Assembly (NCBI GenBank): GCA_020725865.1
Contig: DYEC01000010.1
Location: 62,001 to 126,000 of the forward strand
DNA from: Anaerolinea sp.
Lineage (GTDB): Bacteria > Chloroflexota > Anaerolineae > Anaerolineales > Anaerolineaceae
Direction of reading: 5' to 3'
Length of the DNA: 64,000 nt
The position numbers and the translations under genes are program-made. Below, in pieces: positions 8,155 to 18,133 of this stretch (its first letter is position 1; each line of letters starts with the position of its first letter). The notes under the pieces were generated by a model. It searched no databases, had not been told where the DNA came from, and worked only from the letters and a program-made list of their open reading frames with translations.

Positions 8155-9018
8155 ATGAAAAAAATTCATGCGCGTGTTCCGGTAAGCCTGACGTGGTTGA
8201 TCATGTTTCTACTAGTTCTCATGGCACTATCCAGCGGATGTAATCTGCCCCAAAAAGAAACTGCATCCACTAACGAGATTATTGCCAGCATTGTGGCACA
8301 GACACTCACTGCACAGCCGGTAGTTAAGACTTCCGCTAAAGAAACTTCTGTTCCGGTTACCATAACACCATCTGCCATGATTATCATAACCCTACCGCTT
8401 ACTGAAACCCCAACCACCACACTGACCCCAGAAGAAGATTTCAAAGCTACACTTGGCAACCCAACAGTCAAAGACACACTGGAAAACGGAAAAGGGTTCG
8501 GATTGAGCGGGAGTGGCTACAGCGATGATGCGGCAAGCATTAATGTTTCCAGCGGGGTCATGAGCCTGCAATCGTTCAGTACACTCGGCTGGCGAACTTG
8601 GCGTGTCCGCCCGCCGCAAACCGCCGATTTCTATCTGGAAGGCAAATTTATCACTCAAAACTGCGCTGATAAAGATCAGTTTGGGTTAGTCTTCCGTTCT
8701 CCAAACTATGAAAGCGGATACGGGTACTACTACGGCTTCCGGTGCAATGGTAGTCTCAGTCTTGCCCGCTGGGACGACAACGAGACGACATATTTGCTGA
8801 ATGACACCCTCTCCCCATACAGTCTGACTGGTTCTGGGCAGACCAACCACCTTGGTGTTCTAGCACGCGGAAATCATCTGAAGCTCTTTATCAACGATAA
8901 ACCCGTTCAGGAGCTGGATGACAGTTCTTTTAGTAATGGTTTCTTTGGGGTTTTCATCGCCGGTTACAGCGGCAACCTGACTGTGCAATTAGATGAAATC
9001 ACTTTGTGGAAACAATAA
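8155..9018 (+). CDS. Lipoprotein with Thr-rich linker and beta-sandwich domain
   Basis: A secreted, membrane-anchored protein of unknown role. Residues 1-29 are a type II signal peptide: basic MKKIHAR, a hydrophobic core, and lipobox L-S-S-G-Cys29. A Thr/Pro/Ser-rich spacer runs to about residue 95. The rest is beta-rich with 'DFYLEGKFITQNCADKDQFG', 'YESGYGYYYGFRCNG' and 'GVFIAGYSGNLTVQLDEITL'. This fits the laminin-G/DUF1080-like sugar-binding sandwiches common in Chloroflexota lipoproteins. A ligand cannot be named. An AGAGG ribosome site precedes the ATG. It lies only 12 bases before the exonuclease gene, so it may lead that operon although its function looks unrelated. Confidence 0.75.
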   Translation: MKKIHARVPVSLTWLIMFLLVLMALSSGCNLPQKETASTNEIIASIVAQTLTAQPVVKTSAKETSVPVTITPSAMIIITLPLTETPTTTLTPEEDFKATLGNPTVKDTLENGKGFGLSGSGYSDDAASINVSSGVMSLQSFSTLGWRTWRVRPPQTADFYLEGKFITQNCADKDQFGLVFRSPNYESGYGYYYGFRCNGSLSLARWDDNETTYLLNDTLSPYSLTGSGQTNHLGVLARGNHLKLFINDKPVQELDDSSFSNGFFGVFIAGYSGNLTVQLDEITLWKQ

Positions 9019-9030
9019 GGTGGGAAGAAA

Positions 9031-9594
9031 GTGGGAAACACCTACAAAGAGCAAGCAATCCAAAAAGCCCGACAAATCCTTCGGCAGAATCCTATTTATT
9101 TAGACACCGAAACTACCGGACTGGGAATAAACGACGAAATTGTTGAAATTGCACTCATGGATGATAACGAAAATATTCTATATCAGTCTTTTGTCCGTCC
9201 CACTCAATCAATTCCACTCAGCACAATCGCTATACACGGTATAACGGATGAAATGGTAAGGAATGCACCTTCATGGCAAAAAGTTTGGACAGAGATTCGA
9301 AATATCACTCAAAATCGTCTCATCGCAATTTACAATGCAGATTTTGATTTACGTATGATGAAACAGTCAATGGCTCGCTATCGGTTACCATGGAGCCAAA
9401 ATTTCTCAACTGAATGCATCATGAAACTATATGCAACATACAACGGTGAATGGGACAGCCGGCGCATGTCATACCGATTCATCAGCCTGGAGCAGGCAGG
9501 CAGACAATGCGGGATTCTTCTGCCTAACGCCCACCGCGCGTTAGCTGATGTAAAACTTGCTCGAGCATTATTACATTACATTGCCGAATCATAA
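9031..9594 (+). CDS. DEDDh 3'-5' exonuclease (DnaQ-like)
   Basis: A 187-residue stand-alone exonuclease of the type that forms the proofreading subunit of DNA polymerase III, here probably acting in repair. Exo I is 'IYLDTETTGLG' (Asp25, Glu27), Exo II is 'LIAIYNADFDLRMM', and Exo III is 'NAHRALADVKLARALL' with the His and Asp of the DEDDh class. The start is GTG at 9031, with GGTGGGAAG as ribosome site. Its stop codon is followed immediately by the ATG of the next gene (TAAATG), so it is translated together with the helicase-like proteins downstream. The nucleic-acid substrate (DNA or RNA, single-stranded end or gap) is not known from sequence. Confidence 0.88.
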   Translation: MGNTYKEQAIQKARQILRQNPIYLDTETTGLGINDEIVEIALMDDNENILYQSFVRPTQSIPLSTIAIHGITDEMVRNAPSWQKVWTEIRNITQNRLIAIYNADFDLRMMKQSMARYRLPWSQNFSTECIMKLYATYNGEWDSRRMSYRFISLEQAGRQCGILLPNAHRALADVKLARALLHYIAES

Positions 9595-11745
9595 ATGAAT
9601 CAAATGGCACATCTGTCGATTAATCAAATTTCGCCTACAGAAAACCAGCAAGCCGTTCTAGAATCTTTTGATAAAACGCTCTTTCTGGAAGGACCGTCCG
9701 GTAGCGGAAAGACTACAACCGCCCTGTTTTACCTGCATAGCTTGCTGGAACAGGGCGTGCCGCCGGAAAAGATTCTGATCTTAGTGCCCCAGCGCACACT
9801 GGCAACCTCTTATTACAACCTTTTGCGTGAACCTTATTTACCTGCTAGCGTGGCGATTAGTATTGTAACTATAAGTGGTCTGGCACAGCGCATGATTGAT
9901 TTGTTTTGGCCACTTATCGCCCAAAACGCTGGCTTCGCTCATCCCAACCACCTTCCCATATTCCTCACCTTGGAAACCGCACAATACTATATGACCCGTA
10001 TTGTTGATCCTCTTATTGAACATGAGGGTTATTTTGAGTCCGTTAATCTGGACCGAAATCGGCTTTACAGTCAGATTCTGGATAATCTGAATAAATCGGC
10101 GGCGGTTGGAATTCCACTGATAGAAATTGGCGAGCGTCTGAAGAAAGCATGGGGAGGAAAACCATCTCAACTGGTCGTGTATGATCAGATGCAGGATTGC
10201 GCCATTCGCTTTCGGCGTTTTTGTCTTCAGAATAATCTGCTGGATTTTTCTTTACAGATCAGCATTTTCTGTAATTATCTCTGGTCTTCCTTCCTTTGCC
10301 GGCAGTTTCTTCTCAATCGTTTCCAATTCCTGATCTACGATAATATTGAAGAAGATGTTCCGGTAGCACATGACCTGATTCGGGACTGGTTGCCACACTT
10401 CCGCAACGCATTACTAATTTATGATACCGACGGGGGCTATCGCTCCTTTCTGGGCGCAGACCCTGAGGAAGGACATACCCTGCAATCAGTCTGTCAGGAA
10501 ACAATGCATCTAGATCAAACCCTAGTTACATCACCTGAATTGCGGATTTTCAACGAGGTGCTTGTGCAAAGCATTCAGCACCGTTCTCTGATAATACATC
10601 CATCTATCAGACAGTGCTTAACATCTCGTTATCATCGTTATATCCCCGAAATGATTGAGGATGTCTGCCAGCAGGTGAACCGGCTCATCACAGAAGGCGG
10701 GGTATCACCCGGCGAGATCGTCATCGTCGCACCATATATCTCTGACGCGCTGCGTTTTCTGCTTATCAATCGAATGGAGCAATTACAAATTCCCGTTCGT
10801 TCGCACCGGCCATCGCGGAACTTGCGCGATGAGCCTGCAACCCAGTGTCTGCTCACATGGGCAAAGCTGGCACATCCTCATTGGAACATGCCGGTTACTC
10901 GTCTCGATGTACGGAACGCGCTGGTACAGTCCATTGCCGGTCTTGATCTAACCCGTGCCGAACTTTTATCGCAAATTGTTCACCGTCCGGGCAAGCAAAC
11001 TAGAGAACTAGGTTCATTCGACCTTATTAAGCCAGACATGCAGCAACGCATCACTTATTTTGTTGGAGAACGATACGAGCATCTTCGGCGCTGGATAACG
11101 AACTATCAATCTAACAACAACCCTCAAAACGAAGATAACTCCTGCCTTGAAGTTTTTCTTAGCCGTTTATTTGGCGAGGTTCTCTCTCATCCGGGTTTTG
11201 GTTTTTATCGAAATTTCGACGCTGCAAAAACCTGTACCGAGCTAATCGAATCTGTGCAAAAATTCCGTCGTGTCGTCAGCAATACCCATGATAATTCTCA
11301 ACACTCGATAGCGGTTGAATATCTTCGGATGATAGAAAAGGGCGTTCTGGCAGCACAATATTTACAATCCTGGCAGGAAATCAACGAAGAAACAGTGTTA
11401 ATCGCACCGGCTTATACCTATTTGATGCTGAATCGGCCAGTTCAATATCAATTCTGGCTTGACATTGGCAGTCTAGGCTGGTGGGAACGCCTTAATCAGC
11501 CGCTTACCCATCCCTATGTCTTAAGTCGCCGCTGGGATGAGAATGACGTCTGGGATGATGTTCACGAGCAACAAACAAACCAAACTGCAATGATACGTCT
11601 GGTAAGCGGCTTGATTCATCGTTGCCAGAAGGGTATTTTCCTTTACATACTGGGAGTTAATGAGCAAGGCAATGAGCAACGCGGGCAATTACTATTGGCA
11701 ATTCAATCCATTCTGCGGCATTTACCGCCAAACGAAGAGGTGTGA
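9595..11745 (+). CDS. Degenerate UvrD/AddB-like motor protein
   Basis: A 716-residue protein. Walker A is intact ('LEGPSGSGKTTTAL', about residue 31-44), followed by 'ILILVPQRTLATSYY', the place of helicase motif Ia. Later motifs are decayed. Walker B, normally D-E-x-Q, reads 'FLIYDNIEEDVPVAHDLI'. Motif III, normally GDxxQ, is lost. The site of motif VI reads 'RLVSGLIHRCQKGIFLYILG' instead of YVAxTRAR. 'EIVIVAPYISDALRFLL' marks the second RecA-like domain. No nuclease domain is seen at the C-terminus. This is the layout of AddB/RecC-type partners, which kept a helicase fold for DNA or Chi recognition but lost unwinding. The next two genes would supply the active motor and the nuclease. Structural resemblance to AddB is inference; I do not recognise a named family. 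Confidence 0.65.
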   Translation: MNQMAHLSINQISPTENQQAVLESFDKTLFLEGPSGSGKTTTALFYLHSLLEQGVPPEKILILVPQRTLATSYYNLLREPYLPASVAISIVTISGLAQRMIDLFWPLIAQNAGFAHPNHLPIFLTLETAQYYMTRIVDPLIEHEGYFESVNLDRNRLYSQILDNLNKSAAVGIPLIEIGERLKKAWGGKPSQLVVYDQMQDCAIRFRRFCLQNNLLDFSLQISIFCNYLWSSFLCRQFLLNRFQFLIYDNIEEDVPVAHDLIRDWLPHFRNALLIYDTDGGYRSFLGADPEEGHTLQSVCQETMHLDQTLVTSPELRIFNEVLVQSIQHRSLIIHPSIRQCLTSRYHRYIPEMIEDVCQQVNRLITEGGVSPGEIVIVAPYISDALRFLLINRMEQLQIPVRSHRPSRNLRDEPATQCLLTWAKLAHPHWNMPVTRLDVRNALVQSIAGLDLTRAELLSQIVHRPGKQTRELGSFDLIKPDMQQRITYFVGERYEHLRRWITNYQSNNNPQNEDNSCLEVFLSRLFGEVLSHPGFGFYRNFDAAKTCTELIESVQKFRRVVSNTHDNSQHSIAVEYLRMIEKGVLAAQYLQSWQEINEETVLIAPAYTYLMLNRPVQYQFWLDIGSLGWWERLNQPLTHPYVLSRRWDENDVWDDVHEQQTNQTAMIRLVSGLIHRCQKGIFLYILGVNEQGNEQRGQLLLAIQSILRHLPPNEEV

Positions 11746-13985
11746 TGTTCAGACCCCGTCCACACCAACGCGCAGTTCTCGAATATCGCTCCGGTAAAAT
11801 GGGCATCTCCGCAGTTCCGGGAAGCGGTAAAACTCACACTTTGTCTTATCTGGCAGCACGGCTTATTCAGGAAGGATATGTTGCAGAAGATCAAGAGGTC
11901 TTAATCGTTACACTAGTCAATTCAGCAGTGGATAATTTTTCCAGCCGAATAGCCGGGTTTGTGCAGGAATTTGGGATGTTGCCCGGAACAAATTACCGGG
12001 TGCGCACATTGCACGGGCTGGCGCATGATATCGTGCGCGAACGACCTGACCTGGTGGGTTTGTCCACCCAGTTTGAAATCCTAGATGAGCGCGACTCATA
12101 TCGGATCATCGAAAATGCCACAGTAAACTGGCTGCATTCTAATCCTGATTTCATTTTGGAGTTCACCAAACCAGACATTGATCCATTTCAAAATGGCAAA
12201 ATCCGAGACAAATGGAAGGAACTGGCGATCAATATCACTGCCAGTTTTATCCGCTTATGCAAAGATTATCAGACCACCCCGGAACAGATAAGAGAAAAAC
12301 TGGATTCCTTAAAGTTCATCCATCCCCTGTTGCAGATGGGTGCTGATGTGTACGCAGATTATCAGCGCGCACTCCGGTTCCGTGGAGCATTAGACTTTGA
12401 CGACTTGATCCGTCTAGCGTTAGATGCGTTATTGACAGATGCCAATTATCTTCAGCGTCTGCGCTACCGCTGGCCGTATATCCTTGAAGATGAAGCACAG
12501 GACAGCAGCCGGTTACAAGAACTGATTTTGCGCACACTGGTCGGCGAATCCGGCAACTGGGTGCGGGTTGGTGATCCCAATCAGGCAATTTATGAAACGT
12601 TTACCACAGCCAGCCCTGAATTTCTGCGCAACTTTCTCAAGGAGAACGGCGTTCAAGCCAAGACCTTGCCAAATTCCGGGCGTTCGACCCATAGCATCAT
12701 CAGACTGGCAAATTACCTGATCTGGTGGAATAATGAGCACCCAGTCCACGAGGAACTTCGAGGTGTCCTGAGCTTACCCTATATTGAACCCGCTCCACCT
12801 GGTGACCCTCAACCCAACCCGCCAGATCAACCAGAAGGAATCTATCTGATTGACCGCAAATATGATTCGAACAAAGAGATCCATGCCATTGTCCAATCAT
12901 TGCGTAAGTGGTTGCCCAATAATCAAGATAAAACTGTCGCAGTTCTGGTACCGCGCAATGAACGCGGGGCAAAAGTTGTAGAGGCGCTTCGCCAGAATGG
13001 CATTGAAGTGGTTGAACTCCTGCAATCCACCCAATCCACACGCACGATTGCAGAAATTCTTTGTAATGTTTTGCGTGTACTTTCAGACCCTTTGTCACCC
13101 CGTCTGCTAGAAGAGCTTTATCAAACCCTGCGAAGCCGGGAAGCGAAACGGTTAGATTTTACAGATACTTACAATAAGGTAAAATCACTTCTGCAACACT
13201 GCGAGCGAGTAGAAGATTATCTGGCGCCAACTCCAGAACGAAACTGGCTTGAACAACAAAAAAAACAAGGCAACCCTGATGAGGTGATTAGCGAATTGGT
13301 ATGGTTGCAACAATCTGTCCGCCGCTGGCAGGCAGCGGCTCTTCTCCCCATTGACCAATTGGTCCTGACTATTGCTCAGGACTTGTTCACTGCACATAAC
13401 GATCTGGCATTGGCACATAAGCTGGCGCTTGTGCTGGAACACGCCAGAATGATCAATCCTTTGGGACAACTGAATGACTTTATTGCCGAACTGGATAGCA
13501 TTGTGAAACGACAACGCAAAATTATTGGATTCAGCGATGATGATACCGGCTTCGATCCGGATCAACACAAAGGCAAAGTAGTTGTGGCAACAATTCACAA
13601 AGCAAAGGGATTAGAGTGGGATAGAGTTTATCTAATGTCGGTAAACAATTATGATTTTCCCTCTGCTCAACCATATGATAATTACTATGCTGAAAAGTAT
13701 TTCATTCGTGATGAGCTGAACTTAGAAGCTGAAGCCCTGTTCAGGTTGCGCGCTCTGCTTCAGAATGACCTGCCTGGAATCTTTATTGAGGATGGTTACG
13801 CAACCCAAAGGGCACGCGTGGATTATTCAGCCGAGCGTTTGCGCCTGTTTTATGTTGGCATTACGCGCGCCCGCAGCGAATTAGTCATCACATGGAACAC
13901 CGGACAGCATGAATCCAACCAGCCCGCTCTTCCGCTGGTCGTCTTACGATCTTTCTGGGAGCAGCAAAATGTCTCTTCCTCCTGA
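11745..13985 (+). CDS. UvrD/PcrA-type superfamily 1A helicase without nuclease domain
   Basis: An ATP-driven 3'-5' DNA helicase of about 746 residues. All motor motifs are intact: Walker A 'ISAVPGSGKTHTLSYLAA' near residue 22, Walker B 'YILEDEAQDSSRLQE', motif III 'WVRVGDPNQAIYETF', motif V 'VVATIHKAKGLEWDRVYLMS' and motif VI 'RLRLFYVGITRARSELVITW'. Unlike AddA or RecB there is no C-terminal nuclease; that activity is encoded by the next gene. A GTG at 11742 is open, but the ATG at 11745 has AGAGG four bases before it. The start overlaps the previous stop by one base and the 3' end overlaps the nuclease gene by 17 bases. This tight coupling argues for one complex with its neighbours. Confidence 0.88.
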   Translation: MFRPRPHQRAVLEYRSGKMGISAVPGSGKTHTLSYLAARLIQEGYVAEDQEVLIVTLVNSAVDNFSSRIAGFVQEFGMLPGTNYRVRTLHGLAHDIVRERPDLVGLSTQFEILDERDSYRIIENATVNWLHSNPDFILEFTKPDIDPFQNGKIRDKWKELAINITASFIRLCKDYQTTPEQIREKLDSLKFIHPLLQMGADVYADYQRALRFRGALDFDDLIRLALDALLTDANYLQRLRYRWPYILEDEAQDSSRLQELILRTLVGESGNWVRVGDPNQAIYETFTTASPEFLRNFLKENGVQAKTLPNSGRSTHSIIRLANYLIWWNNEHPVHEELRGVLSLPYIEPAPPGDPQPNPPDQPEGIYLIDRKYDSNKEIHAIVQSLRKWLPNNQDKTVAVLVPRNERGAKVVEALRQNGIEVVELLQSTQSTRTIAEILCNVLRVLSDPLSPRLLEELYQTLRSREAKRLDFTDTYNKVKSLLQHCERVEDYLAPTPERNWLEQQKKQGNPDEVISELVWLQQSVRRWQAAALLPIDQLVLTIAQDLFTAHNDLALAHKLALVLEHARMINPLGQLNDFIAELDSIVKRQRKIIGFSDDDTGFDPDQHKGKVVVATIHKAKGLEWDRVYLMSVNNYDFPSAQPYDNYYAEKYFIRDELNLEAEALFRLRALLQNDLPGIFIEDGYATQRARVDYSAERLRLFYVGITRARSELVITWNTGQHESNQPALPLVVLRSFWEQQNVSSS

Positions 13986-14799
13986 CTTTCTATTCAGCCA
14001 GAGCAATCTGCAGGATTTTGTGGATTGCCCGCGCCGTTTTGAGTTACGGTATATCTTAAAACAGCCCTGGCCGGCATTGCAGCCTGAACCAGTATTAGAA
14101 TGGGAACAGAGCTTGCTTCAAGGACTGCGCTTTCACCAGCTCATTTTACAGTATCTGATTGGTATGCCGGCCGAGGTACTAACCCAAACTATTTATGATC
14201 ACAAACTGCAACGTTGGTGGAATAATTTTCTCGCCGATAATCCTCTTGGAGAGCTGCCTTCAGAACGCTATCCTGAGTTCACCCTCTCTTCCCCCTTTGC
14301 CGGTTTTCGTTTGATTGCTAAATACGACCTGATTGCTGTTGCCCCGGGCAAACGCATTGTCATTGTGGATTGGAAAACCGGTTCTCCGCGTACAAACCCC
14401 AATAGTCTTAGAGAGCGCATTCAGAGCCGCCTATATCCTTTGCTGTTGGTGAAAGCAGGTCATCATATCAATCATGGAGTTGTCAACCCTGAGCAGGTTG
14501 AGATGATTTACTGGTTTGCAGAGAAACCCTCGGCTCCATTTTGCATTCAATACAATCAAACGGAGTACCTTAAGGATCGCGAATATATTACGACGCTGAT
14601 AACCAAAATCGCTTCGCTCCAGCTCGGGAAGTTTGAACTAACACCGGATGACAGGCATTGCGCTTTCTGCAACTACCAGACGCTTTGCAATCGGGGCAAG
14701 CAACCTGGAAATCTGGAAGACTTAGAGGAAGAATCATATCAAGAACTTGAGGATAAAATTCAAATTGATATTGATCAGATTGGAGCAATACAATTTTGA
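13969..14799 (+). CDS. Stand-alone RecB-family nuclease with Cas4/AddB-like Fe-S staple
   Basis: A 276-residue PD-(D/E)XK nuclease. RecB-type active-site residues are visible: His56 (LRFHQLI), Asp120 (LIAKYDLIAV), then Asp134 and Lys136 in 'IVDWKTGSP'. Four cysteines frame the domain, Cys20 in 'DFVDCPRRFELRY' and Cys231-x2-Cys234-x5-Cys240 near the C-terminus. This is the 4Fe-4S staple pattern of Cas4, Dna2 and AddB. No cas1 or cas2 gene or CRISPR array is present, so a Cas4 role in spacer capture is unlikely here. An in-frame ATG at 13909 exists inside the helicase gene, but the ATG at 13969 has a GGGAG site. It probably provides the cutting activity of the helicase complex encoded just upstream. 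Confidence 0.87.
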   Translation: MSLPPDFLFSQSNLQDFVDCPRRFELRYILKQPWPALQPEPVLEWEQSLLQGLRFHQLILQYLIGMPAEVLTQTIYDHKLQRWWNNFLADNPLGELPSERYPEFTLSSPFAGFRLIAKYDLIAVAPGKRIVIVDWKTGSPRTNPNSLRERIQSRLYPLLLVKAGHHINHGVVNPEQVEMIYWFAEKPSAPFCIQYNQTEYLKDREYITTLITKIASLQLGKFELTPDDRHCAFCNYQTLCNRGKQPGNLEDLEEESYQELEDKIQIDIDQIGAIQF

Positions 14800-17141
14800 A
14801 ATCCGTAGTTCAGGAATGGATCGAGCCGCAACCGGTAGAAATTTCACGCGAGCTGGTTGAAGCCGCGGAGGGGCAAATACTGGTTGCCCGGGCACTCGCC
14901 CGGCGCGGATTAAATAAACCGAACCAAGTAAGAGCTTTTCTTGATCCCAACTGTTATTTGTCAGCTTCTCCCCAAGAGTTGCCGGATTTGGCCCGGGCAG
15001 TTGACAGATTGCAAGCCGCAATCGAAAATCATGAACAGATTGGCATTTGGGGCGATTTTGACGTAGATGGACAAACGGCAACCACCTTGCTCCATTCGAG
15101 CCTGAAACGCCTTGGTGCCAATGTTTATTATCATATCCCGGTTCGAGCGGCTGAATCCCACGGCGTCCACCCTCAAAAACTGGTTGAGTTCCTAAAACAG
15201 GGGGTACAACTCTTAATCACCTGCGATACGGGCGTTACTGCCTACGACGCCGTTGAAATCTGCCGGCAGCAGGGCATTGATATGCTGATCACTGATCATC
15301 ACTCCCTGCCACCGGAACTTCCGCCCGCCCTGGCGGTGGTCAACCCTCAAAGATTATCAGAAGATCACCCTTTGCGTCCACTCTGTGGTGTGGGTTGCAC
15401 GTGGAAGGTGGTAGAAGAACTGTATCGTCGCTACGGAAAAATCCCAGAACTGGAAAATGATCTCGATCTAGTGGCGTTAGGGACGATTGCTGACCTTGCC
15501 GAGCTGACCAGGGAGAACCGTTATCTGGTACAACGCGGCTTGAAGCTCTTGCGGGAAACCAGACGTCCTGCATTGCAGGCAATGCTTGAAACCGCTGAAA
15601 TCCACTCCGATTTTCTCAGTGAGAACCACGTCAGTTTTGTCCTTGCTCCGCGTCTTAATGCCATCGGTCGGCTGGATGATGCCAATCCCATTGTTGAATT
15701 CTTAACGACTGATGACATCACGACGGCGCGGCTGTTTGCTGCGAAGCTGGAAGGGCTTAATGCCCGGCGCAGATTGCTTTGCGATCAAGTCTTCCAGTCT
15801 GTTCAGGCACAAATTGAGCGCGAGCCTACTCTGCTAAATAACCCCGCCCTGATTTTGGAACATCCTGAATGGCCCGCCGGAGTGATCGGGGTAGTAGCCA
15901 GCCATCTGGCCGAACTCTATCACTTGCCGGTGATTCTGTTTTCAGCCCCACCCGGTCAAATTGCGCGCGGTTCAGCCCGCTCGGTGGAAGGAATCAATAT
16001 CACACAGGCTATCGCCGCCCAGCAGGAATTGCTTGTCAGCTTTGGCGGTCATCCAATGGCTGCCGGATTGGGCATCCAAAGTGAGCGCATCCCAGAATTC
16101 AAACGTGCAATATTCAAATATCTGATCAGCCATTATCCAGATTTTTCCCCCACCCAAAAACTGATCATTGACGCATTTATCGAGCTGGCAGAAATTACCC
16201 CCGAGATGGTAGCATCAATGGAGCGGCTGGCACCGTTTGGACCGGGAAATCCTCCAGTATTGCTCGCAACACGCAATCTAATGCTGAAAAGTTTTAGCCC
16301 AATTGGAAAAAGCAAAGAGCACTTGCAATTAACAGTAGAAGATACTGCCGGCACATTTCATCGCGTCATCTGGTGGCAGGGAGCTAATTTTAACCTGCCG
16401 GATACTCGTTTTGATCTGGCGTTTGTTGCCCGGGTCAGCAACTACCGCGGGCAAAGCGAAGTCCAACTGGAATGGGTAGCAGCCCGCCCGATTGCATCTG
16501 AGCAATATATCCTGCCCTTAAAGCGGTCTATTCAGGTGCTTGATCTTCGTCAAGAGGAAATCACCGATACACTGATAGAAGCATATTTGAAAGAACCAGA
16601 AACACAACTCTGGAGAGAGGGTGAGCTCACCGGCGGCCCGACAGGTGTTGACCGGTATCATCTTATCCCGTGCCATACGCTGATTATCTGGAATGCCCCG
16701 CCGGGACACAAGGAACTTGAAAGCGCGCTCCATGCTGCCTCACCAGAGCGCGTGATCCTTCTCCACCCCGAGAGCACCCCGGATTTTCCACAAGCATTTC
16801 TGACCCGGCTGACAGGTCTAATCCGTTATGCCTTGCAAACCGGTCAAACCCGGCTGGAGCTCCGCAGACTCGCTGCTGCAACCTATCAGCGCGAAATAGT
16901 TATCCAATTAGGGTTAAAATGGTTAGCAGCAAAAGGTTTATTCAGGATTGAGTTTACATCGGATAGCGAATATGTGATTGCACCTCACGGTAGGCCTGAT
17001 CCAGTTCACCTTGCAGAGTGTGAGGAGAAACTCAAAAACCTGCTCCAGGAAACAAAAGCATATCGCGCCTATTATCTGCGCGCCGATGCCCAAGCACTTG
17101 TCGAGACGGCTATGACCGCAGAAAGAAAAAGCAAGGAGTGA
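14796..17141 (+). CDS. recJ: Single-stranded-DNA-specific exonuclease RecJ
   Basis: A 5'-3' exonuclease that resects single strands in recombination and mismatch or base-excision repair. The DHH phosphoesterase core has 'GIWGDFDVDGQTATTLL', 'LLITCDTGVTAYDAV' and the name-giving 'MLITDHHSLPPELP'. The DHHA1 domain has 'VSFGGHPMAAGLGIQ', and an OB-like region follows near residue 470-560. At 781 residues it has a further C-terminal domain of about 220 residues, as in Firmicutes RecJ, compared with 577 in E. coli. The start is a TTG at 14796 overlapping the nuclease stop (TTGA), with GGAG ten bases upstream. Coupling to the nuclease gene places RecJ in the same repair operon. Confidence 0.93.
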   Translation: MKSVVQEWIEPQPVEISRELVEAAEGQILVARALARRGLNKPNQVRAFLDPNCYLSASPQELPDLARAVDRLQAAIENHEQIGIWGDFDVDGQTATTLLHSSLKRLGANVYYHIPVRAAESHGVHPQKLVEFLKQGVQLLITCDTGVTAYDAVEICRQQGIDMLITDHHSLPPELPPALAVVNPQRLSEDHPLRPLCGVGCTWKVVEELYRRYGKIPELENDLDLVALGTIADLAELTRENRYLVQRGLKLLRETRRPALQAMLETAEIHSDFLSENHVSFVLAPRLNAIGRLDDANPIVEFLTTDDITTARLFAAKLEGLNARRRLLCDQVFQSVQAQIEREPTLLNNPALILEHPEWPAGVIGVVASHLAELYHLPVILFSAPPGQIARGSARSVEGINITQAIAAQQELLVSFGGHPMAAGLGIQSERIPEFKRAIFKYLISHYPDFSPTQKLIIDAFIELAEITPEMVASMERLAPFGPGNPPVLLATRNLMLKSFSPIGKSKEHLQLTVEDTAGTFHRVIWWQGANFNLPDTRFDLAFVARVSNYRGQSEVQLEWVAARPIASEQYILPLKRSIQVLDLRQEEITDTLIEAYLKEPETQLWREGELTGGPTGVDRYHLIPCHTLIIWNAPPGHKELESALHAASPERVILLHPESTPDFPQAFLTRLTGLIRYALQTGQTRLELRRLAAATYQREIVIQLGLKWLAAKGLFRIEFTSDSEYVIAPHGRPDPVHLAECEEKLKNLLQETKAYRAYYLRADAQALVETAMTAERKSKE

Positions 17142-17146
17142 ATGGT

Positions 17147-18133
17147 ATGGATAAACTTCGCTGGGGAATTTTGAGCACCGCGCGTATCAACCGGCGTATT
17201 ATCCCGGCACTGAAAGCCTCACGGCGTAATCAACTAACTGCTGTTGCCAGTCGTTCGCTGGAGAATGCCCGGCAGTTTGCCCGTCAGTGGGATATCCCAC
17301 GTTCTTATGGAAGTTATGATGTTTTGCTGGAAGACTCAAGCATTGACGTAATCTATATTCCCCTTCCCAACCATCTGCATGTCGAATGGACGCTCCGGGC
17401 TCTCCAAGCCGGCAAACACGTTCTCTGCGAAAAACCAATCGCCTTATCACCTGAAGATGTTAATCTAATACAAAATGCCGCCGGTCAGAAAAAACTGGTT
17501 GTCATGGAAGCATTTATGTATCGCCACCACCCCCAAACGATAAAAGTCCGTGAAATCATTGCTTCTGGTGAACTGGGAGAAATCCACCTGATGCACGGGT
17601 GTTTCAGCTTTCTATTGGACAGACCAGATGATGTCCGCTGGGTTCCAGAGTATGGCGGCGGCAGTTTATGGGATCTGGGCTGCTACCCGGTTAGCTATTG
17701 CCGAATGATCATGGGCACCCCACCCACAGAAGTCTGCGGCTGGCAGATGCTTTCTGCCTCAGGGGTTGACCTTGTTTTTGCAGGAACACTGCGGTATTCA
17801 GGGGGCACATTGGCGCAAATCTCATCCAGCTTTGCGGTACAAACTTATACGGGGTTTGAAATTCATGGTTCACACGCAAGCCTTCTGATACCCACACCCT
17901 TTAATCCGCAGGGGAAATCTCACATCATCCTGCAACGCCAAGGGCAAAAACATCAATTTGAATTCAAGGTAAAAGACCTATATCTCGGCGAGATCGAAAA
18001 TATGGCAGATGCCATCCTTGATGGCATTCCACCCCGAATAGATTTACAGGAGAGCAAACAAAATATTACGACGCTAAAAGCACTATATACCTCCGCTGGG
18101 CAAAACACCGCCATTCGCTTATCCAGTGAATAA
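17147..18133 (+). CDS. Gfo/Idh/MocA-family NAD(P)-dependent oxidoreductase
   Basis: A sugar or cyclitol dehydrogenase of about 328 residues. The Rossmann N-terminus begins 'LRWGILSTARINRRIIPAL', which lacks the usual G-x-G-x-x-G but matches the S-T-A-x-I variant seen in the family. The catalytic Lys is in 'HVLCEKPIALSPEDV', and the C-terminal domain has 'YGGGSLWDLGCYPVSYCRM'. The substrate is unknown; similar proteins oxidise or epimerise hexoses and inositols. A GTG at 17138 overlaps the AAGGAG site and is less likely than the ATG at 17147. It is the last gene of the plus-strand repair operon by spacing, probably an unrelated passenger. Confidence 0.88.
   Translation: MDKLRWGILSTARINRRIIPALKASRRNQLTAVASRSLENARQFARQWDIPRSYGSYDVLLEDSSIDVIYIPLPNHLHVEWTLRALQAGKHVLCEKPIALSPEDVNLIQNAAGQKKLVVMEAFMYRHHPQTIKVREIIASGELGEIHLMHGCFSFLLDRPDDVRWVPEYGGGSLWDLGCYPVSYCRMIMGTPPTEVCGWQMLSASGVDLVFAGTLRYSGGTLAQISSSFAVQTYTGFEIHGSHASLLIPTPFNPQGKSHIILQRQGQKHQFEFKVKDLYLGEIENMADAILDGIPPRIDLQESKQNITTLKALYTSAGQNTAIRLSSE

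Follow-up and report, generated by a model that had tools for sequence, protein, structure and literature searches.

A split AddAB-like gene set, conserved with a second RecJ in the Chloroflexota class Anaerolineae

To our knowledge, the end-processing enzymes RecBCD, AddAB and AdnAB all have a nuclease fused to a motor. The AddAB enzyme of Bacillus subtilis has one SF1A motor and two nucleases: that of AddA cleaves the 3'-terminated strand, that of AddB the 5'-terminated one. Chi is believed to act by withholding the 3' strand from the AddA nuclease (PMC4824097). If a lineage had kept a nuclease of the 5'-strand type alone, unfused and accompanied by a second RecJ, it would offer a natural test of what both the fusion and the Chi switch achieve.

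Here we analyse a gene set that may be of this sort, in a 64-kb stretch of Anaerolinea sp. DNA (the window). Five open reading frames follow one another head to tail on the forward strand at positions 9031-17141, joined by overlaps or a zero-length gap, and both this layout and the gene identities given in a preliminary description hold: RNase_T exonuclease, motor with a UvrD/AddB_N-like match, helicase with UvrD_N and UvrD_C, PDDEXK_1 nuclease and RecJ (TIGR00644 above cut-off). The first gene (9031-9594, GTG start) encodes a DEDDh 3'-5' exonuclease of 187 aa (PF00929, E=4e-19) and abuts, with a gap of 0, the gene for an AddB-like inactive SF1 motor of 716 aa without a nuclease domain (9595-11745, starting at 9595 or 9604). 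The stop codon of the latter overlaps (TGATG) the ATG at 11745, the likely start of a UvrD/AddA-type SF1A helicase (11742-13985, 747 aa, PF00580 and PF13361) for which the GTG at 11742 is the alternative. Given a start at 13969 (the frame could begin at 13909), the gene for a PD-(D/E)XK nuclease of AddB/AdnA type with Fe-S cysteines (13969-14799, 276 aa, PF12705 with E=4e-26) overlaps the helicase gene by 17 bp, and it overlaps by 4 bp the gene for a long RecJ paralogue that we call RecJ2 (14796-17141, 781 aa, TTG start, C-terminal extension of about 200 aa). A Gfo/Idh/MocA oxidoreductase gene (17138-18133, forward strand, PF01408) in turn overlaps that of RecJ2 by 4 bp, as closely as at the core junctions, so the chain of coupled genes runs past RecJ2. 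Since the oxidoreductase gene is equally coupled, and 12 of the 33 co-directional gene pairs in the window are separated by 5 bp or less, spacing alone says little; we have dropped the overlaps as evidence for a functional unit, equally tight junctions being common in the window.

Conservation is more informative. When the window's own genome is taken together with 60 relatives, 40 of the 61 have the AddB-like protein, and in 32 stretches of relatives the AddB-like, helicase and nuclease genes are in most cases ordered as in the window, with the long RecJ as well in 22. A scan of GTDB species genomes yielded 554 stretches with a relative; among the 80 of these loci that we examined, 36 have all four genes in the window's order, many contigs ending early. 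Almost all of the 80 are labelled Anaerolineae or Chloroflexi, and they include the isolates Longilinea arvoryzae and Anaerolinea thermolimosa. The gene order, whose absence from relatives would have spoken against the original reading, is thus shared for AddB-like protein, helicase, nuclease and RecJ in dozens of Anaerolineae.

The four genes also co-occur. Across 301 Chloroflexota genomes, the full-length AddB-like protein and the helicase are found in an identical set of 31; the nuclease is present in 29 of these 31 and the long RecJ in 25, leaving two genomes with the pair without the nuclease and six without RecJ2, and neither protein occurs elsewhere among the 301 (the nuclease count leaves out a weak match in G333 that is part of a 1095-aa frame). 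All 31 genomes belong to the class Anaerolineae, of which seven of the 38 sampled members lack the set, and among the sampled Chloroflexota it is confined to this class; hypergeometric values for the co-occurrence are very small but, with all 31 genomes in one class, overstate the case. The genes are frequently dispersed: the helicase gene lies near that of the AddB-like protein (start points no more than 9 kb apart on one contig) in 23 of the 31 genomes, the nuclease gene in 11 and the RecJ2 gene in 5, and in the single-contig genome G047 the respective distances are 11 kb, 130 kb and 746 kb. Linkage therefore cannot explain the co-occurrence. Conserved order and co-occurrence together lift the four-gene core above coincidence, and a chance neighbourhood is rejected.

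The DEDDh exonuclease does not belong to this core. Its gene lies upstream of the AddB-like gene in 14 of the 32 relatives and is separated from it in six of these, in four by two putative msrP- and msrQ-like genes. As it is missing or displaced in most relatives, we reject the five-gene operon originally proposed; the exonuclease is probably a lineage-specific and separable neighbour. The oxidoreductase gene follows that of RecJ in some relatives and is probably a neighbour too, unlikely to be a functional part of a machine. On the other flank lies a gene for a lipoprotein-like protein with weak similarity to 3-keto-disaccharide hydrolases (8155-9018, forward strand). Many genera of the family keep it upstream of either the exonuclease gene or the AddB-like one; it is not a machine part.

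Profile and fold comparisons show what the AddB-like protein and the nuclease are. Residues 29-710 of the former align with residues 4-646 of the canonical AddB of relatives (E=4e-12), and the nuclease matches AddB residues 728-1008 (E=2e-11). The structure model of the AddB-like protein (pLDDT 89) aligns with AddB over 2-695, that is, over the motor, ending ahead of the nuclease, and with the AdnB motor at a TM-score of 0.69. The best folds for the nuclease are the AdnA nuclease (Z 18.8, rmsd 2.6, 221 aligned residues) and AddB (Z 15.6, rmsd 3.1, 230 aligned). By these comparisons, the two proteins together correspond to an AddB severed at the point where motor and nuclease domains meet. The inactive SF1 motor and Fe-S nuclease that AddAB joins in one chain are here encoded by two genes that flank the helicase gene, and no fusion of the two is found in the 80 loci.

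The AddB-like protein is a dead motor in the AddAB manner, with Walker A kept and catalytic motifs lost: GPSGSGKTT is retained with invariant Gly and Lys, and the Walker B glutamate is replaced by asparagine (DNIEED, N250) in 31 of 31 aligned relatives, which gives precise form to the decay of motifs noted earlier. In the nuclease, an alignment of relatives reveals invariant catalytic residues (G52..H56, D120, D134-W-K136, Q152..Y156) and four invariant cysteines (C20, C231, C234 and C240), which support its assignment as a separate Fe-S nuclease of the RecB family, as first described. It scores 92.8 bits with PF12705 (PDDEXK_1) and 13 bits with the Cas4 model PF01930, below the cut-off of 22.7.

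The helicase is intact and has UvrD_N and UvrD_C only, again in agreement with the preliminary description. Its SF1A motif set is complete: across 30 sequences, AVPGSGKT, DEAQD, GDPNQ, HKAKGLEWD and VGITRAR show little or no variation. Pfam finds no PDDEXK match in its 747 aa, so it is not the SF1A helicase with a fused C-terminal nuclease of AddAB. It reaches 73 bits with the AddA model TIGR02785 (cut-off 708), and its profile scores higher with UvrD/PcrA (370) than with AddA (318), so any AddA ancestry of the helicase is putative.

RecJ2 has the DHH, DHHA1 and OB domains of a RecJ (PF01368, PF02272, PF17768) and scores 505.8 bits with TIGR00644 against a cut-off of 396.9. It is not the housekeeping enzyme: another RecJ, of 577 aa, is encoded on contig C2 of the window's genome. 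Core-bearing genomes generally have two, the housekeeping enzyme (about 580 aa) and the longer operon type (about 780 aa), and in a tree the branch separating the long RecJs (including those of dispersed loci and of Salinibacter) from the housekeeping ones has support 1.0 and length 0.90. Among genomes at least 90% complete and with clear calls, in categories assigned by hand from tables, the long RecJ is present in 29 of 31 with the core versus none of 13 without it. The RecJ of the original gene list is thus confirmed as a RecJ and reassigned to a second, longer paralogue. Its C-terminal part searched alone has no Pfam or PDB match; the full profile spans the 757-aa RecJ of PDB 8y30, weakly along the C-terminus, so a long RecJ in itself is not new.

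In the window's assembly (3.12 Mb, 99% complete, 26 contigs) we found no further motor, of canonical AddAB or of RecBCD, and the second set that would have spoken against the original reading did not appear. PF00580 matches only the operon helicase and the AddB-like protein, no other UvrD_C protein scores above cut-off, and the PDDEXK_1 proteins are the operon nuclease and one small membrane-anchored Cas4-like protein. The latter (L002 1486-2067, G000:C5) has an N-terminal membrane segment and adjoins an NAD kinase-like gene; small PDDEXK proteins like it are found in most relatives. A NERD-domain UvrD-like protein (L004 1453-3147, G000:C15 near 48372) is encoded ahead of a large ATPase (2-1456), which looks like part of a defence locus. 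Neither of these two further candidates in the genome, L002 and L004, is AddAB. RecO is present. The genome has no recognisable PcrA/UvrD except the operon helicase, which is unusual, as such a helicase is present in nearly all relatives; this might reflect loss or an assembly gap.

Most genomes with the split set lack canonical AddAB, including the closed or nearly closed G017 (a single contig) and G029, and in such genomes the split set is the only recognised system of AddAB/RecBCD type. It would thereby offer a repair route for a large, mostly uncultured class otherwise scored as lacking AddAB and RecBCD. However, canonical AddAB is also present in 10 of the 31 better-assembled core-bearing genomes, so simple replacement of AddAB by the split set is rejected; coexistence may reflect either a division of labour or one system replacing the other. 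Genome G037 has an operon in which the gene for an 888-aa UvrD-like helicase overlaps that of a 288-aa PDDEXK protein among large unidentified proteins (L179 1027-12786, G037:C18), possibly a different helicase-nuclease system.

Beyond Chloroflexota, the four genes recur in unchanged order (AddB-like protein, helicase, nuclease, RecJ) on pSR56, a plasmid of Salinibacter ruber M8 (Rhodothermota). Identity is 41-43% for the first three proteins, and in the AddB-like tree the plasmid's protein nests within Anaerolineae sequences. Genes for a SocA-type antitoxin and a large helicase lie nearby, and a 202-aa protein without a Pfam or NCBIfam match is encoded directly upstream of the four genes (L199 9269-9877). 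A metagenome-assembled genome labelled Fraserbacteria (L110) also carries the set, through either transfer or misbinning. On plasmid pILYOP01 of Ilyobacter polytropus, a distant solo AddB-like homologue (L200 7983-9956, 21% identity) has the Walker B asparagine; no helicase or nuclease gene adjoins it. No match was found in phage records, and none of 146 pattern matches in viral contigs is a confirmed relative; a viral or phage origin is rejected on both counts.

We consider it probable that the four-gene core specifies a machine of AddAB type for DNA-end resection whose parts are separate polypeptides, with assembly and polarity predicted by analogy. The helicase would be the sole motor, translocating 3'-5', and the dead AddB-like motor would clamp or scan DNA in the manner of AddB. 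The Fe-S nuclease may dock on the AddB-like protein and, like the AddB nuclease, cut the 5'-terminated strand; an AddA-type nuclease for the 3' strand would be absent. RecJ is a 5'-3' exonuclease, and RecJ2 would trim the same 5'-terminated strand. The expected outcome is long 3' tails for RecA, loaded via RecFOR, with little or no destructive phase before Chi. With the AddA nuclease missing, the AddB type kept and a RecJ added, 3' tails without a destructive phase are the simplest inference. Of the three-subunit resection machine with two added exonucleases that was first suggested, the split AddAB-like parts are supported by sequence and model, and the pair of exonucleases is not, the DEDDh enzyme lying outside the core. 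That AddB-like protein, helicase and nuclease almost always come with a second RecJ suggests a different preparation of broken DNA. A bolder and distinctly tentative extension is that they form a separate class of end resection, in which a complex of helicase, dead motor and Fe-S nuclease with a dedicated RecJ degrades only the 5'-terminated strand, leaves 3' tails without Chi control and passes from one phylum to another with its four genes together.

Enzymes of RecBCD type restrict phages too, and the set might instead serve anti-phage or anti-plasmid defence, the helicase and nuclease degrading foreign linear DNA with RecJ2 as a helper. The best-scoring PADLOC models for the helicase are indeed those of GajB, and the plasmid copy lies near the antitoxin and large helicase genes. 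However, PADLOC finds no match to the GajA partner that Gabija requires among the five proteins, the neighbours in the window's family are stable housekeeping genes in many genera (mltG, ruvX-like, pseudouridine synthase, oxidoreductase), phage records and viral contigs gave no confirmed relative, and 31 of 38 sampled class members carry the set, unlike patchy defence systems; we think this reading unlikely. To a similar degree we doubt that there is no single machine at all, the helicase being a general PcrA/UvrD-like enzyme and the nuclease and RecJ2 acting alone in gap repair. Such independence would suit the lack of another recognisable UvrD/PcrA in the window's genome, the helicase's closer profile to UvrD than to AddA and the unlinked genes of several genomes, but nearly all set-bearing relatives have a canonical PcrA/UvrD as well, the AddB-like protein and helicase are distributed identically across the 301 genomes, and a motor without catalytic activity makes most sense as a partner. 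Least probable is a role in a special setting (natural transformation, plasmid recombination or DNA recycling) rather than in ordinary break repair, which would explain the roughly ten genomes with both systems and the carriage on pSR56, but most set-bearing genomes, including single-contig G017, have no canonical AddAB.

Among known systems, RecBCD shares with the set a single nuclease and a UvrD-type motor; the set differs in that its nuclease is not fused to a motor and in that it has neither RecC nor RecD, no such protein being found among the five genes with Pfam and NCBIfam models. AdnAB of mycobacteria provides some of the best folds, the AdnB motor for the AddB-like protein and the AdnA nuclease for the nuclease, but both of its subunits are motor-nuclease fusions, and here there is one nuclease, separate. 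Operons of Clostridiales likewise combine an unfused UvrD-like helicase with a Cas4-like PF12705 nuclease; passages describing them mention no AddB-like partner or RecJ, an apparent difference (PMC5704561). The canonical AddAB of relatives (for example L160) has homologous domains and shares some genomes with the split set, but is encoded at a separate locus with a fused AddB of 1010 aa and a nuclease-bearing AddA of 1111 aa. We found no description of the split arrangement in the open-access literature, the scope of our search, outside which most subscription papers fall. The closest likeness is to AddAB of the B. subtilis type, with one active SF1A motor, a dead motor that keeps Walker A and an AddB-type Fe-S PD-(D/E)XK nuclease; in contrast to it, the helicase here has no nuclease domain, the counterpart of AddB is divided over two proteins, there is a dedicated RecJ in addition and no curated AddA or AddB model reaches its cut-off. 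The split set is real and conserved, an apparently undescribed variant of the AddAB/AdnAB kind.
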